Source of the DNA: Nitrospirota bacterium
GTDB taxonomy: Bacteria > Nitrospirota > Nitrospiria > Nitrospirales > UBA8639
DNA length: 10,612 bases
Direction: 5' to 3'
NCBI GenBank assembly: GCA_029879555.1
Contig: JAOUQB010000052.1
Coordinates: forward strand, 1-10,612
The notes below the pieces were generated by a model. That model had not been told where the DNA came from, ran no database searches, and worked only from the letters and a program-made list of their open reading frames with translations. This document shows, one piece after another, positions 1 through 10,612 of this stretch (position 1 is its first letter; each line of letters opens with the position of its first letter). Made by a program: the position numbers and the translations under genes.

Positions 1-1
1 G

Positions 2-841
2 ATTGTGCTCATTGGCTGTCAAGATCAAAAGGGGCTGGTGGCCAGGATAGCCGGGTTTATCAATGAGTATGGGGGGAATATTCTGGATTCCGATCATCAC
101 ACCGATCGGGAAACGGGAGACTTTCTCATGCGAACGGTGTTTGATATCTCAGAATTCCAACTGGCGCCAAAGGATATATGCGATGCGTTTCGTCCCATAG
201 CCAAAATTCACCATATGGAGGTTCAATGGTATTTTTCGGATCAAAAGCCCAGAGTCGGACTGTTGGTCTCCCAATACGATCATTGTCTTGCTGATGTGTT
301 GCAACGCCATCGTCGGGGCGAATTGGCGATTGAGATACCGGCCATCATATCCAATCATCAAACGGCCGCCTGGTGGGCCGAGCTATTTCATATTCCCTTT
401 CATTATTGCCCTGTGACGCCTGCAACCAAGCCGCAACAGGAAGAACAGGTGCTCTCCATCTTGGGTGAACAACGGGTGGACCTTGTTGTTCTGGCAAGGT
501 ACATGCAAATTGTTAGTGAGAATTTTTTAGATCAGGTTGGCTGTCCAGTGATTAATATTCATCATTCCTTCCTGCCTGCATTTATTGGTGCCAAGCCCTA
601 TCATCAGGCATATGATCGTGGCGTGAAGATTATTGGAGCGACCGCGCACTACGCGACGGCGGAATTGGATGAAGGCCCTATTATCGCACAAGATGTGGTT
701 CGAGTGAGCCACCGGGACACCGTCCACGACCTTATCCGTAAAGGCCGGGATCTCGAGGAACTGGTATTTTCTCGAGCCATTCGTCTTCATATCGAACGCC
801 GAGTGTTAGTTTATGGTCGAAAAACTGTGGTCTTTGATTAA
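2..841 (+). CDS. purU: Formyltetrahydrofolate deformylase PurU, 5'-truncated by window edge
   Basis: Cytoplasmic enzyme that hydrolyses 10-formyltetrahydrofolate to formate and tetrahydrofolate, balancing the one-carbon pool and supplying formate. Counting from the GTG at base 5, residues 1-78 form an N-terminal ACT domain (CQDQKGLVARI, then HTDRETGDFLMRT) and residues 82-278 the formyltransferase-fold catalytic domain. The catalytic signature NIHHSFLPAFIGAKPYHQAY starts at Asn184 with His186, and the catalytic Asp222 lies in LDEGPI. The C-terminal VYGRKTVVF matches the end of known PurU proteins. The frame is open back to the first bases, and the ACT strand before LIGCQDQKG looks incomplete, so the GTG at base 5 is probably not the start: the gene most likely begins a few codons upstream of the window. 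The visible 278 codons compare with about 280 in E. coli PurU. Family assignment is very secure. Confidence 0.95.
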   Translation: MVLIGCQDQKGLVARIAGFINEYGGNILDSDHHTDRETGDFLMRTVFDISEFQLAPKDICDAFRPIAKIHHMEVQWYFSDQKPRVGLLVSQYDHCLADVLQRHRRGELAIEIPAIISNHQTAAWWAELFHIPFHYCPVTPATKPQQEEQVLSILGEQRVDLVVLARYMQIVSENFLDQVGCPVINIHHSFLPAFIGAKPYHQAYDRGVKIIGATAHYATAELDEGPIIAQDVVRVSHRDTVHDLIRKGRDLEELVFSRAIRLHIERRVLVYGRKTVVFD

Positions 842-1036
842 GCCTGTTATGGCTGGTAGGAATTTCCGTGTGTATTTGATGGGTACATTAAGAGATTGAG
901 GGTTAGCTTGGCGAATGTTTGTGACTAGGTCAAAATCGAAAAAACCCGTTGCTGAAAATGACCAAATGCGTGCGGCGTTTTTGCAGTTGCTAACATACAT
1001 TAAACAGGCTTGACGAAGATATTTCTAAAGTATTCG

Positions 1037-1237
1037 ATGCGCATGCTGTGTTTGTTCAAAAGTGTGTTTGAGGTGGTGGGTGTATGCGAATCGTGTGAGA
1101 AAGCACGAAATGTGGAAAAGGTTGATCCTCTGCCTGGTCATCAAACCGCTAAAGAGGAGCGGCTGTATCTTCAAAAACACCAAATTCCTACTGAACCTCA
1201 TTATTGTACCCCAGAAGAAGCACTTGGATACCTCTGA
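1037..1237 (+). CDS. Doubtful small ORF with a CxxC motif, possibly a remnant
   Basis: A 66-codon frame from the ATG at 1037 (open back to a TTG at 1010). The first 15 residues are hydrophobic, then comes CESCEKARN with a CxxC pair, then a hydrophilic tail ending in HYCTPEEALGYL. The tail's composition and codon use look protein-like, but there is no good Shine-Dalgarno sequence before any candidate start and I recognise no family. The CxxC alone does not make it a thioredoxin or glutaredoxin, and no such fold is evident. The same frame continues past the TGA at 1235-1237 for 23 more sense codons (DHEDVRYDVNETP...) to a second TGA at 1307, which could mean a gene with a nonsense mutation. It may equally be chance. 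Confidence 0.25.
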   Translation: MRMLCLFKSVFEVVGVCESCEKARNVEKVDPLPGHQTAKEERLYLQKHQIPTEPHYCTPEEALGYL

Positions 1238-1575
1238 GATCACGAAGATGTGAGGTATGACGTGAATGAAACCCCGTGTCGTGTTGGTTCGTCAAAATCG
1301 CTGTGGTGATTGCTCCTCTTTAAATTCCTGGACCAGTATAAGCTCCAATATGAACCACTGCTGGTTTAACGGTTGAGTGCCATCCTGTTCGGTCTTTCAC
1401 GACTATTGTGCTAGGATTGACTCGAATACAACCTCGAACATGAAGCCTGCTGAGGGCCCAGTTGTGTGCTTTTATACAACATGCGCGCCTTCTTCCATAG
1501 CTGCGGGAACCCGATATCCCAAAATAAACCAAGGTGATTGGTATGTACAAAAAATGGGATTTAATCAAATATTGT

Positions 1576-1584
1576 GAGGTGAGA
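1576..1584 (+). promoter_or_regulatory. Ribosome-binding site of the response regulator gene
   Basis: GAGGTGAGA lies a few bases before the ATG at 1590 and is a strong Shine-Dalgarno match. It fixes the start, agreeing with the receiver's first strand (TVLVVDDE) beginning at residue 4. Confidence 0.75.
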
Positions 1585-1589
1585 TCGTA

Positions 1590-2282
1590 ATGTCTGCAAC
1601 GGTGTTAGTCGTGGATGATGAAAAGGATCTGGTTGACCTTGTTCGATATCATCTCGAAAAAGATGGGCTCAAATGTCTGGAAGCTCGAGATGGGGAAACG
1701 GCCCTGCAAGTCGCCAGAGAGCGGACTCCTGATCTGATTGTGCTCGATCTAATGCTGCCAGGTGTGGATGGGTTGGAGGTATGTCGGAAACTCCGTAAAG
1801 ATCCTAAAACCGCGGCGGTGGCGATCATCATGTTAACCGCTAAAGCAGAAGAAGTGGATCGCATTGTCGGCTTAGAGATGGGAGCCGATGATTATATCGT
1901 GAAACCCTTTAGCCCTCGAGAGCTTGTCGCTCGGGTGAAAGCCGTCTTGCGGCGCGGCCAGCCTCTAGACCAGTCCGCCCTGGCGCAGGTGGGCACCTTA
2001 CTCGTGGATGAGGGGAAACATCTGATTACGATTGCAGGGAAGGCGGTCGATCTGACCGTCAAGGAGTTTGATTTGCTCTGCGGCCTCATGAAGGCCAATG
2101 GCCGTGTCCTCAACCGGGAACAAATTATGGAAACGGTGTGGGGTTATGCGAATGCCGTTGATATTGAGTCGCGTACGGTCGATGTCCATATTCGGCGGCT
2201 TCGAGAAAAATTAGGAGAGGAACAGAAGCGGGTGGTGACGGTGAAAGGTGTGGGTTATCGTTTTGATGCGGACATCGATTGA
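1590..2282 (+). CDS. phoB: OmpR/PhoB-family response regulator
   Basis: DNA-binding response regulator that would be phosphorylated by the kinase encoded 32 bases downstream. Residues 1-120 are a complete receiver domain: acidic pocket Asp9/Asp10, phospho-acceptor Asp53 in LIVLDLMLPG, Thr83, and Lys105 in DDYIVKPF. Residues 130-228 are the OmpR-type winged helix, with DLTVKEFDLL, the recognition region around ESRTVDVHIRRLREKLG and the C-terminal hairpin VTVKGVGYRF. The length of 230 aa equals that of classical PhoB (229 in E. coli), and the receiver wording is closest in feel to PhoB. The partner kinase has the short-loop two-helix membrane anchor of PhoR, which supports the name. No pst or phoU genes lie in the window and no Pho box was found, so the phosphate-starvation role is inference; response-regulator identity is certain. 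Confidence 0.93.
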   Translation: MSATVLVVDDEKDLVDLVRYHLEKDGLKCLEARDGETALQVARERTPDLIVLDLMLPGVDGLEVCRKLRKDPKTAAVAIIMLTAKAEEVDRIVGLEMGADDYIVKPFSPRELVARVKAVLRRGQPLDQSALAQVGTLLVDEGKHLITIAGKAVDLTVKEFDLLCGLMKANGRVLNREQIMETVWGYANAVDIESRTVDVHIRRLREKLGEEQKRVVTVKGVGYRFDADID

Positions 2283-2314
2283 TACCAGGCTTTTCCGATC
2301 TGTGAGAACCCCTC

Positions 2315-3673
2315 ATGGGTAATCCTGCGGTCGTTCTTGTCGGTTGGATGGTTGCTGCGATGCTCGTCGTTGGGGCTAGCCTGACTTGGGCCTGGTCGTG
2401 GTTGGCAATTCTCTTTCTGGGGGGAGGCCTACTTGGTGTGGCATATTGGATCACGCAGAGGGGTTGGAGCCAGGCTCGGGAGAAGGAAGAGAAGATTCGC
2501 GCCAGTCTTGTCGAATTGCAGAAAGTTTCCAAGAGACAAGAGAGTCCTCCCCCTCGGTCGTTTTCCCCAGAGTCTTTGGGAGCCGAGCTTCAGCAAGTCG
2601 TCAATCACATACAGAAACGAATAGGCAACCTTGAAGAAGAACGGGCGAATATTTCCGCCATTGTTCAAAATTTGGTGGAAGGAGTTGTCGCCTTTGACTC
2701 TCATGGCCATGTTCTTTTTGGTAATTCCAGTGCCTGTCACATGCTTGGCTTAGATGAGCAACAGTTGCAAGGGCGATCAGTGTGGGAAGTCATTCGAAAT
2801 AAGGAATTAGCTGAATTGGTCGAACGATGTCGAGCTCTAGATTTCCATGAACGGCAACGTGTGGAAGTTGATATTCATGCACCGTCACCAATGATCGTTG
2901 AAGTGTATGGATTACCGTTTCCCTTGGCCAATCAGAAACAGGGGAGCGTCATGGTGTTGCATGATGTCACCCAATTACGTCGTTTAGAACAGGTCCGTGC
3001 GGAATTTGTTGACAATGTGTCGCATGAATTACGGACCCCTTTGGCGGCGATCATTGGCTACCTAGAGACCTTAATTGATGAGCCATCACTCGAGACCCCG
3101 AATACTCGTAAATTTCTGCATGTCGCGCATCAACATGCTGAGCGGCTCAATCGGTTAGTGGATGACTTGCGAAGTCTCTCAGAAATCGAATCAGGGAATG
3201 TGGTGCTGCGGTGGGAAGCGGTCGGATTGAAGGCTGTGGTTGATGAAGTGACAGGCATGCTTCAGTCACAGGGCCAAAAGAAGGGCCTTCGCTTTCTTAA
3301 TCAGATTGCTGAAGCGGACTGTGTATGGGCTGATCGAGACCGCATGGTACAAATCCTTGTGAACCTTGTCGACAATGCGATTAAATATTCGTCGGAGGGA
3401 GGGTGTATTTCGTTCCTCGCACAGCGGTTGAATGCATCGGTCGTGTTGCAGGTAAATGATACCGGGCAGGGTGTTCCTTCAACCGAACTCTCTCGAATCA
3501 CTGAACGGTTCTACCGTGTGGATCGTGCTCGGTCTCGTGAAGAAGGCGGGACCGGACTGGGCTTATCCATCGTCAAGCATCTGGTTCAGCTGTTGAGAGG
3601 GCAACTTCGTATTCAGAGTGAGTTAGGTAAGGGCACCACGGTCGAGGTGGTGCTGCGAATTTCTTCGAAATAA
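2315..3673 (+). CDS. phoR: PhoR-like membrane sensor histidine kinase with PAS domain
   Basis: Inner-membrane sensor kinase, probable partner of the upstream regulator. Two transmembrane helices (about residues 5-25 and 28-46) are joined by a very short loop, so there is no real periplasmic sensor domain, as in E. coli PhoR. A charged coiled-coil linker (50-115) leads to a PAS domain (115-220: IVQNLVEGVVAFDSHGHVLF to VMVLHDVTQLRRLE). The dimerisation box is FVDNVSHELRTPL with phospho-accepting His237. The ATPase has the N box NLVDNAIKYS (350-359), G1 DTGQG (382-386), F box ITERFYRVD (395-403) and G2 GGTGLGLSIV (411-420), all intact. The 452-aa length is normal. The ATG at 2315 has only a weak ribosome-binding site, so translation may be coupled to the regulator gene. 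The sensed signal is not visible; phosphate control via a Pst complex is only the family expectation. Confidence 0.92.
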   Translation: MGNPAVVLVGWMVAAMLVVGASLTWAWSWLAILFLGGGLLGVAYWITQRGWSQAREKEEKIRASLVELQKVSKRQESPPPRSFSPESLGAELQQVVNHIQKRIGNLEEERANISAIVQNLVEGVVAFDSHGHVLFGNSSACHMLGLDEQQLQGRSVWEVIRNKELAELVERCRALDFHERQRVEVDIHAPSPMIVEVYGLPFPLANQKQGSVMVLHDVTQLRRLEQVRAEFVDNVSHELRTPLAAIIGYLETLIDEPSLETPNTRKFLHVAHQHAERLNRLVDDLRSLSEIESGNVVLRWEAVGLKAVVDEVTGMLQSQGQKKGLRFLNQIAEADCVWADRDRMVQILVNLVDNAIKYSSEGGCISFLAQRLNASVVLQVNDTGQGVPSTELSRITERFYRVDRARSREEGGTGLGLSIVKHLVQLLRGQLRIQSELGKGTTVEVVLRISSK

Positions 3674-3731
3674 TCAGCCAATTGGTGAGGGGGAGAATTC
3701 CGAGACCTGATCCACGAGTAGGAGATGCGGT

Positions 3732-4127
3732 ATGTATGTCATCGAAATGTTTGCAGATTCTTGTGAGGGAATTAAACCGTCAGGAGCTATTTTATTACAC
3801 CCTTCATGGGAAGATATTGAAACAGCGATACGGAAACTGAATGGCGAAAGCTACACCATCGTGCGGTTACAGGGCCAAGATGAAGGCCATATGGCCGTTG
3901 GCGGTGGAGCGCATGGACGGTATATTGTGTATGCCACATTCGACAATGAAGAATTTTTTAATTTAGTGTCTGCTGATAAAGCCATAGGCTCCGTACCCCT
4001 TTCCATTGGTGGGCAGAAACAACATATTCCTATGGAGACCGTTGTCGAGGTTGATCTTGTGTTCAAAGCCGCAAAAGCTTTTGTGGAGCTTGGAGCGCTC
4101 GAAACAAGTTTGGAATGGAAGAAATAA
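3732..4127 (+). CDS. Imm1-family-like immunity protein (orphan)
   Basis: Small soluble protein of 131 aa, no signal peptide or membrane segment. The layout matches my recollection of the Imm1 immunity family (Pfam PF14430), which includes antitoxins of polymorphic-toxin systems such as the DddA deaminase. It has an N-terminal helix SWEDIETAIRKLNG (25-38), a strand YTIVRLQG, then HMAVGGGAHGRYIVYATF with the glycine-rich turn, and the family-like ending in which a Val-Asp helix (KAAKAFVELG) is followed by SLEW. AGGAG at 3720-3724 precedes the ATG at 3732 with good spacing and sets the start. It lies 58 bases after the kinase gene with no terminator between, so it may be co-transcribed with it; a terminator follows at once. 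No toxin gene accompanies it. The family call is by pattern only and no specific toxin partner can be named. Confidence 0.72.
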   Translation: MYVIEMFADSCEGIKPSGAILLHPSWEDIETAIRKLNGESYTIVRLQGQDEGHMAVGGGAHGRYIVYATFDNEEFFNLVSADKAIGSVPLSIGGQKQHIPMETVVEVDLVFKAAKAFVELGALETSLEWKK

Positions 4128-4153
4128 GGAATGGTTGAGAGATGAAAAATGAG

Positions 4154-4197
4154 GGTTTGTGTATTGATGATAGAGGATCGATCAAACCACGCTTTTT
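4154..4197 (+). terminator. Candidate rho-independent terminator after the Imm1-like gene
   Basis: GGTTTG (4154-4159) pairs with CAAACC (4183-4188), and inside it ATTGAT (4163-4168) pairs with ATCGAT (4177-4182) with one G-U pair. A 3-base bulge separates the two stem halves and the loop is 8 bases. ACGC then TTTTT (4193-4197) follows. It starts 27 bases after the stop codon of the Imm1-like gene, the right place to end the two-component transcript. The stem is AT-rich, so strength is uncertain. Confidence 0.5.
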
Positions 4198-4239
4198 GAC
4201 TGTGATGGCCCCGCGCATCCCATTCCCTGATGCGTTTAA

Positions 4240-4679
4240 ATTGAAACCATTCCTCTAGGGTGCCTTGTCCATCTCACCATGTGCTGCAGTGTGATTGCGA
4301 TGCAAAAAAAACGCCAGGTTCCTCCCACGGCCGACCTATTTTTTGTTCCAGTAAAAAAGGCCAAAACCGGTAACGCCTTGTTCGGCCTCATGTAGATAAG
4401 CCCGGCGCTGGTCAAAGAGAAGCAGGCCCACTCGCGGAGCCTGTCCTGCATCTAGTCAAAGGGTTCAGTCAAAGACCGCTGATTGATAAGGACATCCATC
4501 CTACGATCTGGACCGCCTGCCTTGAGTTTTCGGAAGAGGGGTGGGGCGAAGGTTTTGCAACCCCGTATTTCTACTTCCAGTACAACTTCCCAGCGAACAC
4601 TAAGTCCTTGCGGAGGGGATATTCAGACTCGTTTTTAATGGGAGTGAAGGAAGTGCATTTTTTGGCGATGTCCAGGGAA
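4240..4679 (+). pseudogene. Possible frameshifted coding remnant of unknown family
   Basis: Two adjacent plus-strand frames read like pieces of one protein. The first is open from 4240, has an ATG at 4300 and stops at TAG 4393-4395 (MQKKRQVPPTADLFF...NALFGLM). The second frame opens at 4374 and carries on from GAT 4395 (DKPGAGQREAGPLAEP, later TACLEFSEEGWGEGF, TPYFYFQYNFPANTK) without a stop to beyond 4679, where it enters the antisense of the lipoprotein gene. It has no ATG, GTG or TTG until 4608, so it could be translated only as a continuation. Composition and codons look protein-like but I recognise no family and see no ribosome-binding site. A hairpin proposed as a minus-strand terminator lies inside it, so chance open frames are a real alternative. 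Confidence 0.25.
4353..4388 (-). terminator. Candidate rho-independent terminator for the minus-strand operon
   Basis: Read on the minus strand, AGGCCGAA (from 4388 down) pairs with TTTTGGCCT-side bases (AGGCC/GGCCT plus a G-U and two A-U pairs). The loop holds a GG/CC inner pair, and a run of six T follows (4358-4353). It points the right way to end the lipid-transport transcript but lies about 290 bases past the lipoprotein stop codon. A second T8 tract (4311-4304) sits further along without a clear stem. Confidence 0.4.
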
Positions 4680-5324
4680 TTACATGTTGGTGTTGGTGAG
4701 TTTGAGGAGGGAGAGCTTGGATGCATCTGCGAGAAAATGATTCAGGATGGTCGACAACGCTTGATTGTAGGCATCAATAGAGGAAGCGATATCCAGGTCT
4801 GTCGTTGGCCGCTCTTCTCGATAGGTGCGTAGCAAGAGCGTTCGTCGATCGTGCATCGACGTGATTCCCAGTTCAAGTTCCAAGATGACCCGAGGGGTTT
4901 GATCGAGTACTCGTTCTAATTTCGCAATCCGACATGATAAGGCGTAGTCTGCCTTCGTGCGCATTTCCGGTGTGACGACTTGTTCGGCGAGTCCGGCTTT
5001 CCTGAGATAATGTGTCATTTCTTGTTGTACCAAGAGGGTAGGAGAATCGACCCAACGATGGTAGGCATGGTGGTTGAGTTGGGAGATGTTGTCGTCTTTC
5101 CGATACACAAGATGCCGTTCACTCGTCAGGGCGTCTGCCCAGGGGCGCGTGACTTGAAGGGTTCCCTGAAAAGGAGTCGGATCTAATCGTGTTTCTGGAT
5201 CGGCCAGATTCAATCGATAAAAATAATCTGGTGAGGGCTGTCCACCGAGACACCCCGTCAAGGCCAAAGCGCCGACCACACATAGGCTGATCATACAGAT
5301 CATTTTCGGTATGTTCATTTTCAT
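4680..5324 (-). CDS. ABC-transport auxiliary lipoprotein, PqiC-like
   Basis: Envelope lipoprotein expected to work with the MCE transporter encoded just upstream. From the ATG at 5324 the first 25 residues are a lipoprotein signal peptide: Lys near the start, a hydrophobic core, and the lipobox LTGC with Cys25 as the lipidation site. Leu and Gly follow the cysteine, with no Asp at +2, so outer-membrane sorting is expected. The mature part starts PSPDYFYRLNL, the typical opening of the PqiC/ABC_trans_aux family (PF03886), and has the family's RWVDSPTLLVQQEMTHYL helix and YALSCRIAKLERV strand. The length of 214 aa is normal. A TTG directly behind the mlaD stop codon would add four residues; I preferred the ATG, though Met at 5318 is also possible. 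It is the last gene of the operon. Confidence 0.85.
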   Translation of the reverse strand: MKMNIPKMICMISLCVVGALALTGCLGGQPSPDYFYRLNLADPETRLDPTPFQGTLQVTRPWADALTSERHLVYRKDDNISQLNHHAYHRWVDSPTLLVQQEMTHYLRKAGLAEQVVTPEMRTKADYALSCRIAKLERVLDQTPRVILELELGITSMHDRRTLLLRTYREERPTTDLDIASSIDAYNQALSTILNHFLADASKLSLLKLTNTNM

Positions 5325-5336
5325 TTGTCCATTCAA

Positions 5337-6263
5337 TCAGGGTTCACTAAACTCCCGACCTCGTACAATGAGCCCAGGGTTGCGACGCAGATCAGTGGTG
5401 AGTTCATTCATATTTCGCGTGGTGGCTTCCAAGTTAGAACTAATCTCTTGAATGTGGCTCGCGACGACTTCCAGCGTATGGTGGAGATCGGCGATAGAAT
5501 GATCAATCTCTCCACCATTGTTGCTGACGATCTTTCGCATCGAGAGCAAGAGGACATCCAATTGTTTCCGGGTCTGGTGAAAATCCGTTGTCAGGGTGGA
5601 TATGTTTCCAGAGGCGAGCTCGGCCTTTCCTAGAATCGTCTCGATGTGCCCTCCGCTTTGATCAAGAATGTGATTAAGGCGTGTGGTGGCGGTGGTCAAT
5701 TGTTTGGTAAAGATTTTAATATTATCCAGAATAATGGGGGCATCTTGAGAGAGAGTTGAGAGGGAGTCTGTGCCTCCTGAGAGATTATCAAGTAAGGGCT
5801 TTAAGCTCGAATCTGCAAGGTGCCCTAACTTTGCGGCGACGGATGACATGGTCGTCATGATATTCGTGGATCCTAAGCTCGGAATACGTTCACCGGGTGC
5901 AAGCATGTGATTTGACGTTCCAGCTTGGATATCGACGACCATGGCAGAAAGGAGACTGGCTTGAGTCATGACCGCGAGGCTGTCTTCAGGGATTTCCCAT
6001 GTCTTGCGAATCGTGACATGAAGACGGTAGAAGGCCGACTCAGGTGTTCGCATAAACACAATATCCTCGATTTCTCCAACCGGATAGCCTTCAAATAGGA
6101 TTTGGCCGCCTGGAGAAAGTCCGATAACATTGTTGAATTCCATGTAATAGGCGGTGGTTGATTGAGTGCTACCGGAAAGCACGGCGAGCCAAGCCACAAG
6201 GGTACCGAGCATGGTGAGCACAAAGACTCCGACGATGAGATAATTTTTTCGAGAATCTCGCAT
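5337..6263 (-). CDS. mlaD: MlaD-family MCE-domain lipid-transport protein
   Basis: Substrate-binding subunit of the lipid ABC transporter, anchored in the inner membrane and facing the periplasm, where MCE domains form a hexameric ring with a central lipid channel. Residues 8-29 are one transmembrane helix (YLIVGVFVLTMLGTLVAWLAVL). Residues 39-120 are the single MCE domain: YYMEFNNVIGLSPGGQILFEG, then PVGEIEDI, and VVDIQAG with PGERIPS. Residues 125-295 are a long helical region rich in Leu and Thr that could extend the ring towards the outer membrane, and the C-terminus DLRRNPGLIVRGREF is typical of such proteins. At 308 aa it is longer than E. coli MlaD (183), nearer to MCE proteins paired with a PqiC-like lipoprotein. 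It starts 39 bases after mlaF, with only a distant AGGAA as ribosome-binding site. Confidence 0.92.
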   Translation of the reverse strand: MRDSRKNYLIVGVFVLTMLGTLVAWLAVLSGSTQSTTAYYMEFNNVIGLSPGGQILFEGYPVGEIEDIVFMRTPESAFYRLHVTIRKTWEIPEDSLAVMTQASLLSAMVVDIQAGTSNHMLAPGERIPSLGSTNIMTTMSSVAAKLGHLADSSLKPLLDNLSGGTDSLSTLSQDAPIILDNIKIFTKQLTTATTRLNHILDQSGGHIETILGKAELASGNISTLTTDFHQTRKQLDVLLLSMRKIVSNNGGEIDHSIADLHHTLEVVASHIQEISSNLEATTRNMNELTTDLRRNPGLIVRGREFSEP

Positions 6264-6302
6264 GGCGTAGAATCAATTCCTCAGGAGTGACTTGCTCGTC
6301 TG

Positions 6303-7133
6303 TTAAGCATGGGTCAGCGCCTCGTTGGGTTCTCCCGTAAGCCGAGCCATGTATTCATCGGGATCAAGGATCTCTTCTTCAAAATATCGGTTCAGTAAAT
6401 CTTGGATGCGACGGTTGTCAGATGCCCGGACTTCATCCACGGTTCCAATGGTCAAAATATCGCCTTTATCCAAGACGGTGATGCGGTCCGCAATACGAAA
6501 CGCACTTTCCAACTCGTGTGTCACCACGACGATGGTCATGTCGAGGGCGTCTCGGAGACGGAGAATTAATTCGTCTAACGAGGCGGACACGACCGGGTCG
6601 AGGCCAGCCGAGGGTTCGTCGCAAAATAAAAGAACGGGGTCCATGATCACCGCCCGCGCAAATGCGGCTCGTTTGAGCATCCCCCCTGAAAGTTCGGAGG
6701 GCATGAGATTTTCAAATCCTGCCAGGTTGACCACTTCCAATTTGAGCCGTGCCATAATTTCCATCGTGTGGTGATCGAGCTTCGTGTGTTCTCGTAGTGG
6801 GAGCATGATGTTTTCCCCCACGGTCATCGAACTGAACAATGCGCCACTTTGAAAGGCCACACCCAGCTTTCGATAAAACAAGGTGATTTCCTGGTCAGTC
6901 ATCATGCCAATGTCTTGGCCTAACAGTTTGATGTGCCCGCTACTCGGCTGTTCCAAGCCAATGAGATGGCGTAAGAGGGTGCTCTTGCCTGAACCACTGC
7001 CCCCCATAATGACCATGATTTCACCCTTGTAAACAGTCAGTGAAATGCCATTCAAGATCTTGCGAGATCCGTAATGCGTGGTGAGATCCGTGACTTCAAT
7101 CATGGGGGGAGATTCAGAAAGCGGGATAGCCAT
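6303..7133 (-). CDS. mlaF: MlaF-family ABC transporter ATP-binding protein
   Basis: Cytoplasmic ATPase that powers the MlaE permease. All nucleotide-binding elements are intact, counting from the ATG at 7133: Walker A GGSGSGKST (44-52), Q-loop Gln95 in VAFQSGALFS, signature LSGGM (148-152, the Mla-type variant, where most ABC proteins have LSGGQ), Walker B VLLFCDEP with Asp172 and Glu173, D-loop SAGLDP and switch His206 in VVTHE. The C-terminal tail (about 245-276, ILDPDEYMARL) extends past the core and may contact the partner subunit or the STAS protein, as the MlaF tail does in E. coli. An upstream in-frame TTG at 7163 would overlap the permease gene by 23 bases; the ATG at 7133 lies seven bases past the permease stop codon and keeps the usual family N-terminus, so I chose it. 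Confidence 0.93.
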   Translation of the reverse strand: MAIPLSESPPMIEVTDLTTHYGSRKILNGISLTVYKGEIMVIMGGSGSGKSTLLRHLIGLEQPSSGHIKLLGQDIGMMTDQEITLFYRKLGVAFQSGALFSSMTVGENIMLPLREHTKLDHHTMEIMARLKLEVVNLAGFENLMPSELSGGMLKRAAFARAVIMDPVLLFCDEPSAGLDPVVSASLDELILRLRDALDMTIVVVTHELESAFRIADRITVLDKGDILTIGTVDEVRASDNRRIQDLLNRYFEEEILDPDEYMARLTGEPNEALTHA

Positions 7134-7140
7134 GGTTTCG

Positions 7141-7959
7141 TTACCGAGTGAGCAGGAACACAATAAGAAGATCGGCCAAAATAATGGCTAAGATCGAATG
7201 GACGACGGCCTGAGTGGTGACCTGTCCCACGCCTTCTGCCCCTCCGCTGACCGATGAGCCATTCACGACACCAACAAGTGTGATCAGGACGCCAAATACC
7301 AAACTTTTTCCCAAGCCGTGCAACACATCATCGGTCCCAAGATAGGTCACGGTTTCTGTGACATAGGATCCCATCGAAATCCCGAGATCGGTCGTGATAT
7401 AGAGTCCTGCACCCAGGAGGGCGATGAGGTCTGCCCATAGGGTAAGTGAGGGAACCATGATCATCATGGCCACCAGGCTGGGAACGACCAGGAATCGCAC
7501 GGGATTGATGCCCATGACCCGCAAGGCATCAATTTCATTATTGATCATCATGGTACTTAAGCGAGCTGCAAAGGCCGAACCTGACCGGCCGGCGACTAAA
7601 ATCCCGGTTATCAATGGCGCGAATTCACGGACAACTGACAGCGACACGCCAAACGTCACTTGATGCTCTGCGCCAAAATCCTTTAACGCATCGATGCCTT
7701 GAATTGCCAACATAAGTCCGATGGTGATGGAGACCAGTGAGATAATTGGTAACGCCAAAATACCGACCTCCAGCATTTGAGCGACGATGGGAGCAAGGCG
7801 AACCTGCTGTTTTCGACGTCCTCCCCAACAGATCCAAAAGATCGATTGGGAGAATAAGGACGTTCCAAATCCAAGTGCCTCGACCCATTGGGTGGTGACT
7901 CGTCCTACGCTTTCGATTTTGTAAAGGAATCGTGGAAGTGGGTGTTCAGATCTCTGCAT
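7141..7959 (-). CDS. mlaE: MlaE-family lipid ABC transporter permease
   Basis: Inner-membrane permease of the MCE lipid transporter, forming a dimer with two MlaF subunits and carrying the MlaD ring. Counting from the ATG at 7959 (272 aa), an amphipathic N-terminal helix (8-50) precedes about five hydrophobic stretches: 66-86, 112-124, 154-170, 174-190, 217-233 and 252-270. The family hallmark REFAPLITGILVAGRSGSAF begins at Arg111 and runs into INNEIDALRVMGINP (139-153), the coupling region facing the ATPase. Length is normal (E. coli MlaE 260). An upstream TTG at 7992 is in frame and would give 283 aa with a 47-base overlap; I favour the ATG, preceded by GGAAAG and overlapping the STAS gene by 14 bases. 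That overlap implies translational coupling to the STAS protein. Confidence 0.92.
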   Translation of the reverse strand: MQRSEHPLPRFLYKIESVGRVTTQWVEALGFGTSLFSQSIFWICWGGRRKQQVRLAPIVAQMLEVGILALPIISLVSITIGLMLAIQGIDALKDFGAEHQVTFGVSLSVVREFAPLITGILVAGRSGSAFAARLSTMMINNEIDALRVMGINPVRFLVVPSLVAMMIMVPSLTLWADLIALLGAGLYITTDLGISMGSYVTETVTYLGTDDVLHGLGKSLVFGVLITLVGVVNGSSVSGGAEGVGQVTTQAVVHSILAIILADLLIVFLLTR

Positions 7960-8278
7960 GGATCGCGCTTTCCATGTCTGAATGAATGACAAACACCTTG
8001 TCGAGTCGTGCGAGGGTCAACACTCGAACGACAGCTGGGTTGAGCCGAATAAACGCCAGCTGTCCCCCCTTTTTCTTGGTTCGTTGAAAGGCTTCCACAA
8101 GTGAGGCGATACCGGAGCTGTCAATATACGTGACGGATACCATATCAATCAGAACGTTTGTGCTCTGATCGATGGTCTCGAGCAAAATCTGACGAGCTTT
8201 GGGGGAGCTTTCTAAGTCGATCTCTCCGGTAAGAGCGACAATGTGATAGCCCTGTTGTTCGCAGACCGTATGTTCCAT
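7946..8278 (-). CDS. STAS-domain protein, anti-sigma-factor-antagonist / MlaB-like
   Basis: Single STAS domain of 110 aa with no other region. Strands HIVALTGEIDLESSP (12-26) and NVLIDMVSVTYIDSSGIASL (41-60) are characteristic. The phosphorylatable motif Asp53-Ser54-Ser55-Gly56 is intact; by comparison with SpoIIAA the second serine, Ser55, is the likely phosphosite. Two roles are possible. Classic antagonists bind a RsbW/SpoIIAB-like kinase when dephosphorylated, and the upstream gene encodes exactly such a kinase and its opposing phosphatase 16 bases away. In Mla transporters the STAS protein MlaB binds MlaF and activates it, and the downstream gene is mlaE, overlapping by 14 bases. Context supports both, so it may link the two. 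The ATG at 8278 has no clear ribosome-binding site, which suggests coupling to the preceding gene. Confidence 0.9.
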   Translation of the reverse strand: MEHTVCEQQGYHIVALTGEIDLESSPKARQILLETIDQSTNVLIDMVSVTYIDSSGIASLVEAFQRTKKKGGQLAFIRLNPAVVRVLTLARLDKVFVIHSDMESAIHAEI

Positions 8279-8294
8279 ATGTTTGATTCAGGGG

Positions 8295-10019
8295 TTACGA
8301 ACGTTCATCCACGGCTTTGACCATGCGAAGGCGATTTCCATTCCCGGCTGGGGATGGTTTGATAGAAACCGTATCCATGACTTGCCGCATAAAATGACAG
8401 CCCAGTCCCCCAGGGCGAATATCCTCAAACGCTCGGGGATTCATACAATCGGGACTGACCACCGGGGCCTGATCTTCGAGGATGACGACCAAGGCCTTCG
8501 GGGTGAGTTCGATGTGCAAGGTAATCGGGTCATCGCATTCCCCATGATAGGCATGGCGGATAATGTTCTGGCACGCTTCATCAATGGCCAACACGATGTC
8601 TTCTACTTTATCGGAGTGCCAACTATGATTATTGAGGGCCATTCGTGTCATGGCTCGCAGAGGGCCGAGTTCTTTTGCGCGAGCAGGGAACTGATGAGCG
8701 AGAACGACCTGTTTAATGAAGCCAGGTGTGTGCAGGCTCATACTAGGGGCCCACTCGAAGGCGAGAATAGATAAATCATCCTGCGCGTGTTGGGTCTCGG
8801 TCCAATCCAACACGGTTTTCGCAATTGCGTCGACGCTGACTTGTAGTGGCGATTTCTGTGTGACTTTCAATGTTTCTTGTAATCGAGTTTCACCGAAAAA
8901 TTCCTTTGAGGGATCCTTGGCCTCGAGTATCCCGTCCGAATACAAGAAGAGCCGTCCGCCTGGCTCAAGTTTGATGGTTCCCTCCTCATACTGACTTTCT
9001 TCGAAAAGACCGATCGGGACATTTCCGATTTCACAGGCGATCACCTGTTGATGAGGCGCAAGGTAGAGGGGAGGCGGATGACCTGCACACGTATACCGAA
9101 ACACCCCGTTTCGAATATTCAAAATTCCGTAGATCCAGGTGAAGTATTGGCGACCATTTTCGCTCATGGGAAACATACGATTTAAACGAATGGCGATTTC
9201 TGCGGGAGGAATAATAGTGTCTGGTTCAGGCGTCCGGTTGGCTTTGATAAAAAGACAAGAGGGGTCTCGGCGAGGAATCAGCACCCGGCTGAGGGTGACC
9301 GACAGTAGAGACGCGGAAACCCCATGACCACTGACATCCAGCACATACATTCCCACATGGTCGGCATCAAGCTGAAATACATTTAACGAATCTCCACCTA
9401 ACTCTGAGCAAGGTTGATAGGTCCAGGCAAAGACCACACTAGGAAGTGTCGGTAAGGTATCGGGTAATAGCGCTTGTTGAACTCTTGCCGCAGCAGCGAG
9501 ATCATTTTTCATGCGATCATTCGCTTGCTGGACCATCAGCATGGACGCTTGTAGTGCTTCTTCCGTTCGTTTGCGTTCCGCGACCTCACTCTGAAGATTT
9601 TCGATGATTTCTTCCAGCAGCACCTGGAGATTTCGAATTTTCAAATGGGTGGTAATGCGCGCAATCACTTCCTCGACTTGAAATGGCCTCGTGACGTAAT
9701 CCACCGCGCCGACAGAAAATCCTTTGACGGTACTGACCGAATCGGAAGGGGCCGTGACAAAAATAACGGGGATATCTTTAGTCTCATCCTGTTCTTTCAG
9801 GCGAAGACAGGTGTCAAACCCGCTGAGGCCAGGCAACGTGACATCCAAAAATATTAAATCCGGCTTGAGAGCGTCACAGGTCGTCAGAGTGGTTTCTCCA
9901 TCCGGGACGAGGGTCAGTTGAAAACCAAACGCGGAGAAGCTTTGCACGAGTATTTGGACATCAGGAGAATCGGCTGTGGCCATTAATATGAGGCCCAGAT
10001 GCATGGGATGGTTGGTCAT
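8295..10019 (-). CDS. Receiver-PP2C (SpoIIE/RsbU) phosphatase-RsbW-like kinase fusion protein
   Basis: Cytoplasmic three-part regulator of 574 aa. Residues 8-120: receiver domain with phospho-acceptor Asp59 (LIFLDVTLPG) and Thr89, but Arg111 in VTRPF where Lys is nearly invariant, and ATAD instead of the usual two-acid VDD. Residues 125-178: coiled-coil signalling helix. Residues 179-424: PP2C-type serine phosphatase like RsbU/SpoIIE, with RVQQALLP and the metal-binding aspartates Asp210 (ELGGD), Asp228 (LDVSGHG), Asp362 (LYSDG) and Asp414/415 (QDDLS). Residues 435-570: HATPase of the RsbW/SpoIIAB type, with AIDEACQNIIRHAY (Glu481, Asn485), a divergent G1 (EDQAP) and GGLG (537-540). The predicted job is to set the phosphorylation state of the STAS protein encoded next. 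The ATG at 10019 lacks a good ribosome-binding site; Met6 or Met13 are less likely starts. First gene of the operon. Confidence 0.93.
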   Translation of the reverse strand: MTNHPMHLGLILMATADSPDVQILVQSFSAFGFQLTLVPDGETTLTTCDALKPDLIFLDVTLPGLSGFDTCLRLKEQDETKDIPVIFVTAPSDSVSTVKGFSVGAVDYVTRPFQVEEVIARITTHLKIRNLQVLLEEIIENLQSEVAERKRTEEALQASMLMVQQANDRMKNDLAAAARVQQALLPDTLPTLPSVVFAWTYQPCSELGGDSLNVFQLDADHVGMYVLDVSGHGVSASLLSVTLSRVLIPRRDPSCLFIKANRTPEPDTIIPPAEIAIRLNRMFPMSENGRQYFTWIYGILNIRNGVFRYTCAGHPPPLYLAPHQQVIACEIGNVPIGLFEESQYEEGTIKLEPGGRLFLYSDGILEAKDPSKEFFGETRLQETLKVTQKSPLQVSVDAIAKTVLDWTETQHAQDDLSILAFEWAPSMSLHTPGFIKQVVLAHQFPARAKELGPLRAMTRMALNNHSWHSDKVEDIVLAIDEACQNIIRHAYHGECDDPITLHIELTPKALVVILEDQAPVVSPDCMNPRAFEDIRPGGLGCHFMRQVMDTVSIKPSPAGNGNRLRMVKAVDERS

Positions 10020-10290
10020 GATGGGTAGTTAGCAGCTGGGAAGGAAGCAGGGCATGGAAGGTGGAATAAAATAAAGGAATAATTCTGCCGCGTTAAAGGT
10101 TTTGCCTCAGATTCTTCAAGGCCGTTTGGTGAGCGATCCCATTTGTTCCCTTTCTCACTATATCGACAAAAATTTTGGGAGACCTAAATTCGCGGTTCGA
10201 TTTCATTGCAGCCATACGTGTGGTTGTAGGATGGGTAAGTATCTCCTGGTCGCAGTGTTCCCCGAGGAAGCGTACATCGTCCCCTAAAAC

Positions 10291-10306
10291 GTTACATAGC
10301 TGTAAC
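10291..10306. promoter_or_regulatory. Perfect inverted repeat, possible operator
   Basis: GTTACA-TAGC-TGTAAC: two 6-base half-sites with perfect symmetry around a 4-base spacer, in the divergent intergenic region about 110 bases before the plus-strand gene and 270 before the minus-strand operon. Size and symmetry suit a dimeric repressor such as a TetR- or GntR-class protein. No T tract follows, so it is not a terminator. A chance occurrence is possible. Confidence 0.35.
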
Positions 10307-10403
10307 CTGGCCCCAACCCGTTAGCAACATGATGTGAGTAGGATCTGTATAGCGGAGTTGATCTCGTGAATGAATTGCTCTTGGAACAATCGCGAATAAC
10401 CGT

Positions 10404-10410
10404 GGAGGTG
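10404..10410 (+). promoter_or_regulatory. Strong ribosome-binding site for the partial gene at 10415
   Basis: GGAGGTG sits four bases before the ATG at 10415, close to the consensus Shine-Dalgarno. An in-frame TGA at 10409-10411 rules out any start further upstream, so the start codon is well fixed. Confidence 0.8.
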
Positions 10411-10414
10411 AGAG

Positions 10415-10612
10415 ATGGTTTCATTGCAAGAACAAGAACGGGCCAAACGAATGATTGAGGGACAGGATGAGCAACATGTTTTGAATTTTATTGCGTTAAA
10501 AAAAGTCGTCACGCTTGACATGCTTGTTGAACAGTTTTCGCGGATTCGCTGGGGCGATCTGTTTTCAACTTTGGGTAGGTTTAGGCGTGAAGGTCTCATG
10601 ACAGTACACCAA
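10415..10612 (+). CDS. Partial protein with winged-helix-like N-terminus, runs off the window
   Basis: The first 66 codons of a gene that continues beyond the right edge without a stop. The strong ribosome-binding site and bounded start make it a real gene. After a charged N-terminal helix (QEQERAKRMIEGQDEQ), residues 20-63 have a helix-turn-helix rhythm: VLNFIALKKVVTLDMLVEQF, then WGDLFSTLGRFRREGLMTV, where a helix pair is followed by a likely recognition helix and the start of a wing. This resembles winged-helix DNA-binding domains in which RREGL precedes the wing. I do not recognise a specific family and the C-terminal part is missing, so its role is unknown. It is divergent from the minus-strand operon and could regulate it, perhaps through the dyad at 10291-10306; that is speculation from position alone. 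Confidence 0.8.
   Translation, partial: MVSLQEQERAKRMIEGQDEQHVLNFIALKKVVTLDMLVEQFSRIRWGDLFSTLGRFRREGLMTVHQ

Follow-up and report, generated by a model that had tools for sequence, protein, structure and literature searches.

A stretch of 10,612 nucleotides from a Nitrospirota bacterium (assembly GCA_029879555.1, contig JAOUQB010000052.1, positions 1 to 10,612; the whole stretch is called the window below) carries an operon in which genes for a phosphatase-kinase protein and a STAS protein lead into the genes of an MCE/Mla-type lipid ABC transporter. We propose, with a probability of roughly 0.7, that these genes would form a partner switch whose output is the MCE lipid transporter, the STAS protein acting on the ATPase MlaF in the place of MlaB and being controlled by phosphorylation of its residue Ser54. 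An earlier note on this DNA, made from the sequence alone, had suggested an MlaB-like subunit switched by serine phosphorylation, and the idea is strengthened by the conserved gene order, by an invariant phosphosite, by a C-terminal extension of MlaF that is found in the kinase-linked operons, and by a source genome in which no protein passes the MlaB model.

Six minus-strand genes follow one another, overlapping or at most about 40 bases apart according to the list of open reading frames (ORFs) and the Pfam scan, in the order REC-PP2C-HATPase_c_2, STAS, mlaE, mlaF, mlaD and a PqiC-like lipoprotein gene (Table 1). An MlaE permease, an MlaF-type ATPase and an MCE protein, the parts that define an MCE/Mla-type lipid ABC transporter, are all present. 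The earlier note had described the first protein as a PP2C phosphatase joined to an RsbW-like kinase, which was confirmed, and had overlooked its N-terminal receiver domain. Its account of the other genes agrees with the ORFs and the Pfam scan: the intact Asp-Ser-Ser-Gly site of the STAS protein is Asp53-Ser54-Ser55-Gly56, the mlaF, mlaD and lipoprotein genes follow downstream on the same strand with short gaps, and the 14-base overlap of mlaE with the STAS gene holds for the ATG at 7959 (the TTG at 7992 would make it 47). The operon had been placed at 7141-10019; the genes located there are as described, and it continues beyond them, down to 4680.

The window MlaE was used to query 245 Nitrospirota genomes, and the best loci were fetched and annotated with profiles built from the window proteins and their matches in the fetched loci, not from Pfam. 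Besides the window, 18 of the 20 top loci encode PP2C, HATPase, STAS and MlaE in this order; in one of the other two a receiver gene parts STAS from mlaE, and the last is without such genes. An MlaD match in L246 was rejected as false, the protein being a chemoreceptor. A sample selected by STAS, comprising the best 80 of 448 relatives in named loci of a collection with one genome per species, has the same order in 75 loci. The five exceptions are three short contigs cut at the end, one locus where a receiver gene intervenes between STAS and mlaE, and one without a recognised mlaE. By NCBI phylum, the 75 loci are assigned to Nitrospirota (52), Calditrichota (3), Nitrospinota (3), Pseudomonadota (3), Tectimicrobiota (2), Myxococcota (1) and Bacteroidota (1), and 10 have no NCBI phylum, KSB1 records included. 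The Myxococcota label is doubtful because that copy nests inside Nitrospirota in the MlaE tree, and so is the Bacteroidota label, because its MlaF tail is identical to a KSB1 one. Members of five or more bacterial phyla carry the module.

Loci were also selected by their kinase. All 36 genomes, among the 245 of Nitrospirota, with a kinase of at least 109 bits have this kinase upstream of mlaE, in one case with a receiver gene parting STAS from mlaE. At the next match the score falls from 109 to 90 bits, with 30 matches below, and none of the seven of these 30 that were fetched as controls stands with mlaE, all of them lying in other clusters. An eighth low-scoring kinase was met by chance in L091 (5185-6020; the same locus as L174), a magnetotactic Nitrospirota genome, where a second kinase-STAS pair is convergent to the transporter operon and the STAS site reads SSAG, not DSSG. 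Magnetospira is an alphaproteobacterium, and in the taxonomic order that holds a Magnetospira metagenome-assembled genome a kinase of at least 114 bits occurs in 124 of 199 genomes. Forty loci of these 124 were fetched, and 39 of them have kinase, STAS and MlaE in series, 38 with a recognised phosphatase; the one miss is a contig end. No named host of this alphaproteobacterial form emerged from a plasmid search. Recurrence in STAS- and kinase-selected loci rules out a chance neighbourhood in one genome. The conservation of the phosphatase/kinase-STAS-mlaE order, which the earlier note had named as a check, thus extends beyond the source genome, and its proviso that the pairing of these enzymes with Mla genes might be unique to that genome can be dropped, as the order recurs widely.

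Several loci vary around this core. In L105, L125 and L164, mlaE stands apart from mlaF and mlaD, yet the kinase-STAS-mlaE block is intact; in L125 other genes lie between mlaE and mlaF/mlaD, and in the stretches of L105 and L164 no mlaF or mlaD was seen downstream. In seven loci of one Nitrospirota family (L231, L232, L233, L236, L237, L240 and L243), a gene of 412-439 amino acids precedes the phosphatase gene on the same strand; in L232 and L233, where it was scanned, it encodes an M48/CAAX-type membrane protease.

The STAS protein is of the RsbV/SpoIIAA type. It matches the anti-sigma factor antagonist model TIGR00377 with 76.3 bits (cut-off 53.45) and has the Asp-Ser site. Its AlphaFold model, with a mean predicted local distance difference test (pLDDT) of 94.9, includes a strand at 97-99 and a helix at 102-107 and, by fold comparison, has the full SpoIIAA/RsbV fold. 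No MlaB chain is among the 50 fold matches listed for this model, which has no bearing on relationship. In the alignment, Ser54 falls on Thr52 of E. coli MlaB, and a Ser occupies this position in 131 of 131 operons. Ser58 of SpoIIAA is likewise the Ser directly after the Asp.

Asp-Ser-Ser is invariant in all 131 distinct operons that have STAS and kinase genes beside mlaE. The counts from STAS-selected loci are biased, because DSSGIA was part of one of the two patterns used for the search; a separate count was therefore made over operons chosen by MlaE or kinase, independent of the STAS sequence, and it gave 72 of 72. In the helix that follows the phosphosite, Ala58 and Glu62 are likewise present in all 131 STAS proteins linked to Mla genes, and in 20 STAS rows unlinked to mlaE the same positions hold Ala three times and Glu never. 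These 20 were taken from 27 rows classed as other, with L091 and L174 among them representing one locus; the seven left out (L109, L128, L147, L178, L188, L201 and L205) are Mla operons at contig ends or without a recognised kinase or mlaE, and they share the Ala58/Glu62 signature.

A contrast is offered by 22 MlaE permeases with a long N-terminal STAS-like extension, resembling the Mpc system, for which no kinase or phosphatase gene was found upstream. At the phosphosite position their fused domains, defined by a stretch of over 110 residues ahead of the MlaE domain, have Thr (9), Ser (7), Gly (4) or Val (2), the STAS profile having recognised 6 of the 22, so that some of these letters may be misaligned. 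The phosphosite is thus constant in systems that have kinase and phosphatase, and variable in the fused systems, where neither enzyme was found. The window STAS protein is a separate ORF, not a domain fused to the permease. An apparent fusion of STAS to MlaE in L090 was also ruled out: the MlaE ORF there is over-extended, and beneath it lies a STAS ORF (8310-8642) that is separate and in frame; L207 resembles it in this.

A second feature goes together with the free STAS protein and is absent where STAS is fused: a C-terminal extension of MlaF. With a relaxed motif it was found in 118 of 118 kinase-linked operons with a usable tail, 0 of 22 fused systems and 1 of 5 others; the one match among these five is on a short contig that has a free STAS gene. 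The motif was relaxed after inspection of the misses, so that the count of 118 is not blind, and one truncated MlaF was excluded; a first, stricter motif gave 92 of 118 versus 0 of 22. The tails can be compared with that of E. coli MlaF, DGPISFRASSKDYREDLLIG in one Nitrospirota clade corresponding to DGPVPFRYPAGDYHADLLPGS in E. coli, and DPDEYMARLTG in the window to GDYHADLLPG. The AlphaFold model of the window MlaF (pLDDT 91.4) places a short helix at 258-266 in the extension, with pLDDT near 67, and its leading fold matches come from MlaF in MlaFEDB complexes, with an alignment that extends to E. coli residue 265. The window extension probably corresponds to the element by which E. coli MlaF contacts MlaB. 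The signature LSGGM is present in 117 of 119 MlaF proteins of kinase-linked operons.

The phosphatase-kinase protein has the residues expected of both enzymes. Its PP2C domain, of the SpoIIE/RsbU type, contains the metal-site Asp residues, which are kept in 126-129 of 129 operons. Its kinase domain, of the RsbW/SpoIIAB type, has the N-box Glu and Asn and the signature RPGGLGxH; across operons the N-box Glu is found in 128 of 129 and the N-box Asn in 129 of 129, and the N-box Glu/Asn, G1 Asp and G2 glycines together in 128-129 of 129. Phosphatase and kinase are fused into one chain in the window and in 36 other operons of the 129. The complete REC-PP2C-HATPase_c_2 architecture occurs in at least 13 further proteins, 73-84% identical, among the 120 matches listed of 663. 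The sensor part differs between loci: a REC match on the phosphatase was obtained in 2 of 129 operons (the window and L090), and a Pfam scan of five phosphatases from other loci showed GAF domains in every one. In the window receiver the phospho-acceptor Asp59 is kept, the canonical acidic pair is absent and Arg111 stands where Lys is usual; the acidic-pair and Lys positions vary among the 75 relatives compared. In L109 (also L205; region 1350-2357) a separate receiver-domain gene lies between the STAS gene and mlaE, which indicates that the module can acquire an extra signalling part.

Taken together, these features suggest how the switch might work. The HATPase domain would use ATP to phosphorylate Ser54 of the STAS protein; phosphorylated STAS would leave MlaF, and the ATPase would fall idle. 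When a signal is sensed by the receiver (by GAF domains in the other phosphatases scanned), the PP2C domain would dephosphorylate STAS, which would rebind MlaF, and lipid transport would resume. STAS would in this way bind now the kinase, now the transporter, and the output would involve no sigma factor. That phosphate would mean off is suggested by analogy with SiaC and with the phosphomimetic variant T52E of E. coli MlaB, which is reported to lower MlaF binding (PMC7367683).

Several observations weigh against this proposal. The module is found in a minority of Nitrospirota, 36 of the 245 genomes versus 229 with MlaE, so MlaE functions without it in most of them. The G1-box Gly of the kinase is replaced by Ala in 43 of 129 operons, the window included, and a receiver lacking the usual acidic pair and Lys may take its input otherwise than by phosphotransfer. 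The source genome has 14 STAS matches, that of the window included, and eight sigma-70 region-2 proteins; the window kinase may engage in cross-talk with other STAS proteins or sigma factors. The variant T52A of E. coli MlaB is reported to stay bound to MlaF with its ATPase activity abolished (PMC5016091), so that the role of the site may be something other than simple release. The STAS protein also scores 22.6 bits with the MlaB model NF033618 of NCBIfam, below the cut-off of 90, which rules it out as a true member of the MlaB family, and its model retains the fifth strand and last helix that the minimal STAS fold of E. coli MlaB is reported to lack (PMC7367683). The idea of an MlaB subunit therefore stands as to the place that the protein would fill and falls as to literal identity: with a score below the cut-off of the MlaB model and the full SpoIIAA/RsbV fold, it would act in MlaB's place and not be an MlaB.

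The rest of the source genome (605 contigs, 92% complete) bears on the same question. It has three MlaE genes, and two mlaC genes on other contigs, none in the operon. Among all its proteins none passes NF033618, the best score, 22.1 bits, being that of the window STAS protein. Two HATPase_c_2 domains lie above the cut-off, that of the window with 89.8 bits versus 36.2 for the other. A second partner-switch-like cluster (L110, contig C329, 3824-8624) consists of the end of a PP2C ORF, a REC-HATPase_c_2 protein, an HDOD-STAS protein, a STAS protein and a chemoreceptor-type protein. The earlier note had named a separate mlaB, together with a separate sigma/anti-sigma set elsewhere and a pairing unique to this genome, as findings that would tell against it; no mlaB was found, and this second REC-HATPase/STAS cluster and the eight sigma proteins were.

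An ordinary anti-sigma circuit, in which the kinase would hold a sigma factor encoded elsewhere, STAS would free it and the transporter would merely be a co-transcribed target, draws on these eight sigma proteins and on the RsbV/SpoIIAA-type sequence and fold of the STAS protein. We nevertheless consider it unlikely. In keeping with the earlier remark that the operon offers no sigma factor, Pfam found no cognate sigma gene among the window operon genes, and a sigma profile run over the 131 operon loci (1.43 Mb) gave a single weak match, on the opposite strand and about 3.9 kb off. This profile was built from four E. coli sigma factors, whose recovery is no independent control; in the source genome it found six of eight sigma loci and missed two short ones, so small genes of the extracytoplasmic function type may be overlooked in the flanks. 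In the genomes checked, all 36 top-scoring kinases are upstream of mlaE and the seven lower-scoring ones are not, a link through transcription only would not need an MlaF extension that tracks the free STAS protein, and the STAS gene sits where other Nitrospirota and the Mpc system of Brucella have a STAS domain fused to MlaE.

Two further readings keep the transporter as the target and change the role of STAS. It might be a constant structural subunit on which kinase and phosphatase act, phosphorylation activating or licensing MlaF with no release. The bound but ATPase-dead T52A variant (PMC5016091) would fit this, since a hydroxyl or a phosphate might be needed, and phosphorylation of Bordetella BtrV is reported to promote binding to its anti-sigma partner (PMC8256260). 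The weaker MlaF binding of T52E (PMC7367683) points the other way, as does the reported effect of phosphorylation in SiaC and in canonical SpoIIAA/RsbV systems, where it prevents or ends partner binding, and we regard activation as improbable as well. A three-way competition would mirror the RsbW/RsbV/sigma arrangement most closely in form: the kinase itself would bind the transporter (MlaF or MlaE, for instance), and STAS would displace it and never join the transporter. Both the MlaF extension, which is of the type that contacts MlaB, and the fused STAS-MlaE proteins point instead to STAS as the transporter's partner, and we hold this arrangement to be very improbable.

Beyond the window, we lean towards a broader view of the partner switch on MlaF. 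It would be a dedicated and widespread class in which a sensor phosphatase and a kinase clamp STAS on MlaF or release it, switching lipid traffic without new gene expression; the sensor would be exchangeable, with GAF domains elsewhere and a receiver in the lineage of the window, and the MlaB known from model bacteria would be what is left of such a phospho-switch, or a simplified version of it, after loss of its kinase. MlaE of the window and of L090 groups with the copies of the Magnetospira order with a value of 100 in the Shimodaira-Hasegawa-like approximate likelihood ratio test (SH-aLRT), the hosts being nevertheless Nitrospirota; the MlaF tails of both share the form of those copies, the fusion of phosphatase and kinase is common to window and Magnetospira-order copies, and the kinase was found in only two (G000, G242) of 16 genomes searched of the window's family. 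For the window lineage, transfer and a later exchange of the sensor domain are likely. In an MlaE tree built by a quick method from 66 of 129 kinase-linked rows and 30 others, a single clade of kinase-linked MlaE is disfavoured (approximately unbiased test, p 0.029); several origins are not pressed here because long branches meet.

Table 1. Genes, domains and sites of the operon, in window coordinates.
Feature	Position	Strand	Basis
REC-PP2C(SpoIIE)-HATPase_c_2 protein, 574 aa	8295..10019	-	Pfam, three domains above curated cut-offs
Receiver (REC) domain, residues 22-122	9654..9956	-	Pfam, 68.9 bits
PP2C (SpoIIE/RsbU-type) phosphatase domain, residues 219-423	8751..9365	-	Pfam, 138.6 bits (cut-off 25)
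HATPase_c_2 (RsbW/SpoIIAB-type) kinase domain, residues 444-568	8316..8690	-	Pfam, 86.2 bits (cut-off 27.4)
STAS protein, 110 aa, RsbV/SpoIIAA-type, predicted in MlaB's place	7946..8278	-	Pfam STAS, 73.7 bits; TIGR00377
Asp53-Ser54-Ser55 codons of the STAS gene	8114..8122	-	Sequence, alignment
mlaE permease, ATG at 7959 (ORF 7141-7992, alternative TTG at 7992)	7141..7959	-	PF02405, 232.8 bits
mlaF ATPase, ATG at 7133 (ORF 6303-7163), signature LSGGM	6303..7133	-	
MlaF C-terminal extension with DPDEYMARLTG	6306..6392	-	Motif comparison; AlphaFold helix
mlaD, 308 aa, MCE domain and long C-terminal region	5337..6263	-	PF02470
PqiC-like ABC auxiliary lipoprotein (ABC_trans_aux), LTGC lipobox	4680..5336	-	PF03886

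The remainder of the window holds other genes. The gene at 2-841, for a protein that combines ACT and formyl transferase domains, precedes a plus-strand pair at 1590-3673 that encodes a response regulator (REC and Trans_reg_C) and a PAS-containing histidine kinase. An Imm1-family immunity protein gene (Pfam 41.3 bits) lies at 3732-4127 on the plus strand, and no toxin partner for it was recognisable among the ten window ORFs scanned with Pfam. A promoter scan gave 6 matches versus 5.9 in shuffles, no excess.

Phosphorylation of MlaB has been put forward as a hypothesis by Thong et al. 2016 and Kolich et al. 2020, whose available text gives no in-cell evidence and names no kinase (PMC5016091, PMC7367683). 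A term search of the main text of a review of STAS-only proteins returned no occurrence of Mla, and the accessible parts of the open-licence literature searched contained no description of a partner-switching or RsbU/RsbW module with an Mla operon. As far as that literature shows, the operon combines known parts in a new, conserved circuit. A survey of MlaB is reported to have used NF033618 (PMC10665443), and surveys based on this model would probably overlook STAS proteins of the window type. With both enzymes encoded ahead of the STAS and transporter genes in several phyla, the question of MlaB phosphorylation becomes directly testable. If the prediction is true, it would answer an open question on the control of envelope lipid transporters: partner switching, so far described chiefly for sigma factors and a small number of enzymes, would extend to an ABC transporter, and a signal would switch lipid traffic between membranes with no need for new gene expression.

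The system can be placed among known ones by what it shares with each. With E. coli MlaFEDB it has in common the MlaE, MlaF and MlaD homologues, a free STAS protein, a Ser54 that corresponds to Thr52 and a comparable MlaF extension; it differs in an RsbV-type STAS protein with a Ser-Ser site, a longer fold and a gene placed before mlaE, and in an operon with kinase and phosphatase, a PqiC-like lipoprotein and a longer MlaD, without mlaC. The chimeric Mla-Pqi system Mpc of Brucella is reported to share the series MlaE, MlaF, long MlaD and PqiC-like lipoprotein and a STAS domain before MlaE, whereas its STAS domain is fused to the permease and no kinase or phosphatase is named in the available text (PMC12436622). 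The Mpc-like fused loci of Nitrospirota differ from the window in that the phosphosite is not kept and MlaF is without the extension. The RsbU-RsbW-RsbV and SpoIIE-SpoIIAB-SpoIIAA systems have the same kinds of parts, a SpoIIE phosphatase, an HATPase_c_2 kinase and a STAS protein with Asp-Ser, but in the window phosphatase and kinase form one chain and the genes lead into an ABC transporter, no sigma factor having been found in the operon. SiaABCD of Pseudomonas aeruginosa resembles the proposed action, since a STAS-like protein set by phosphatase and kinase is reported to activate an enzyme directly in its unphosphorylated form (PMC8457831); its output is a diguanylate cyclase, whereas that of the window would be a transporter.

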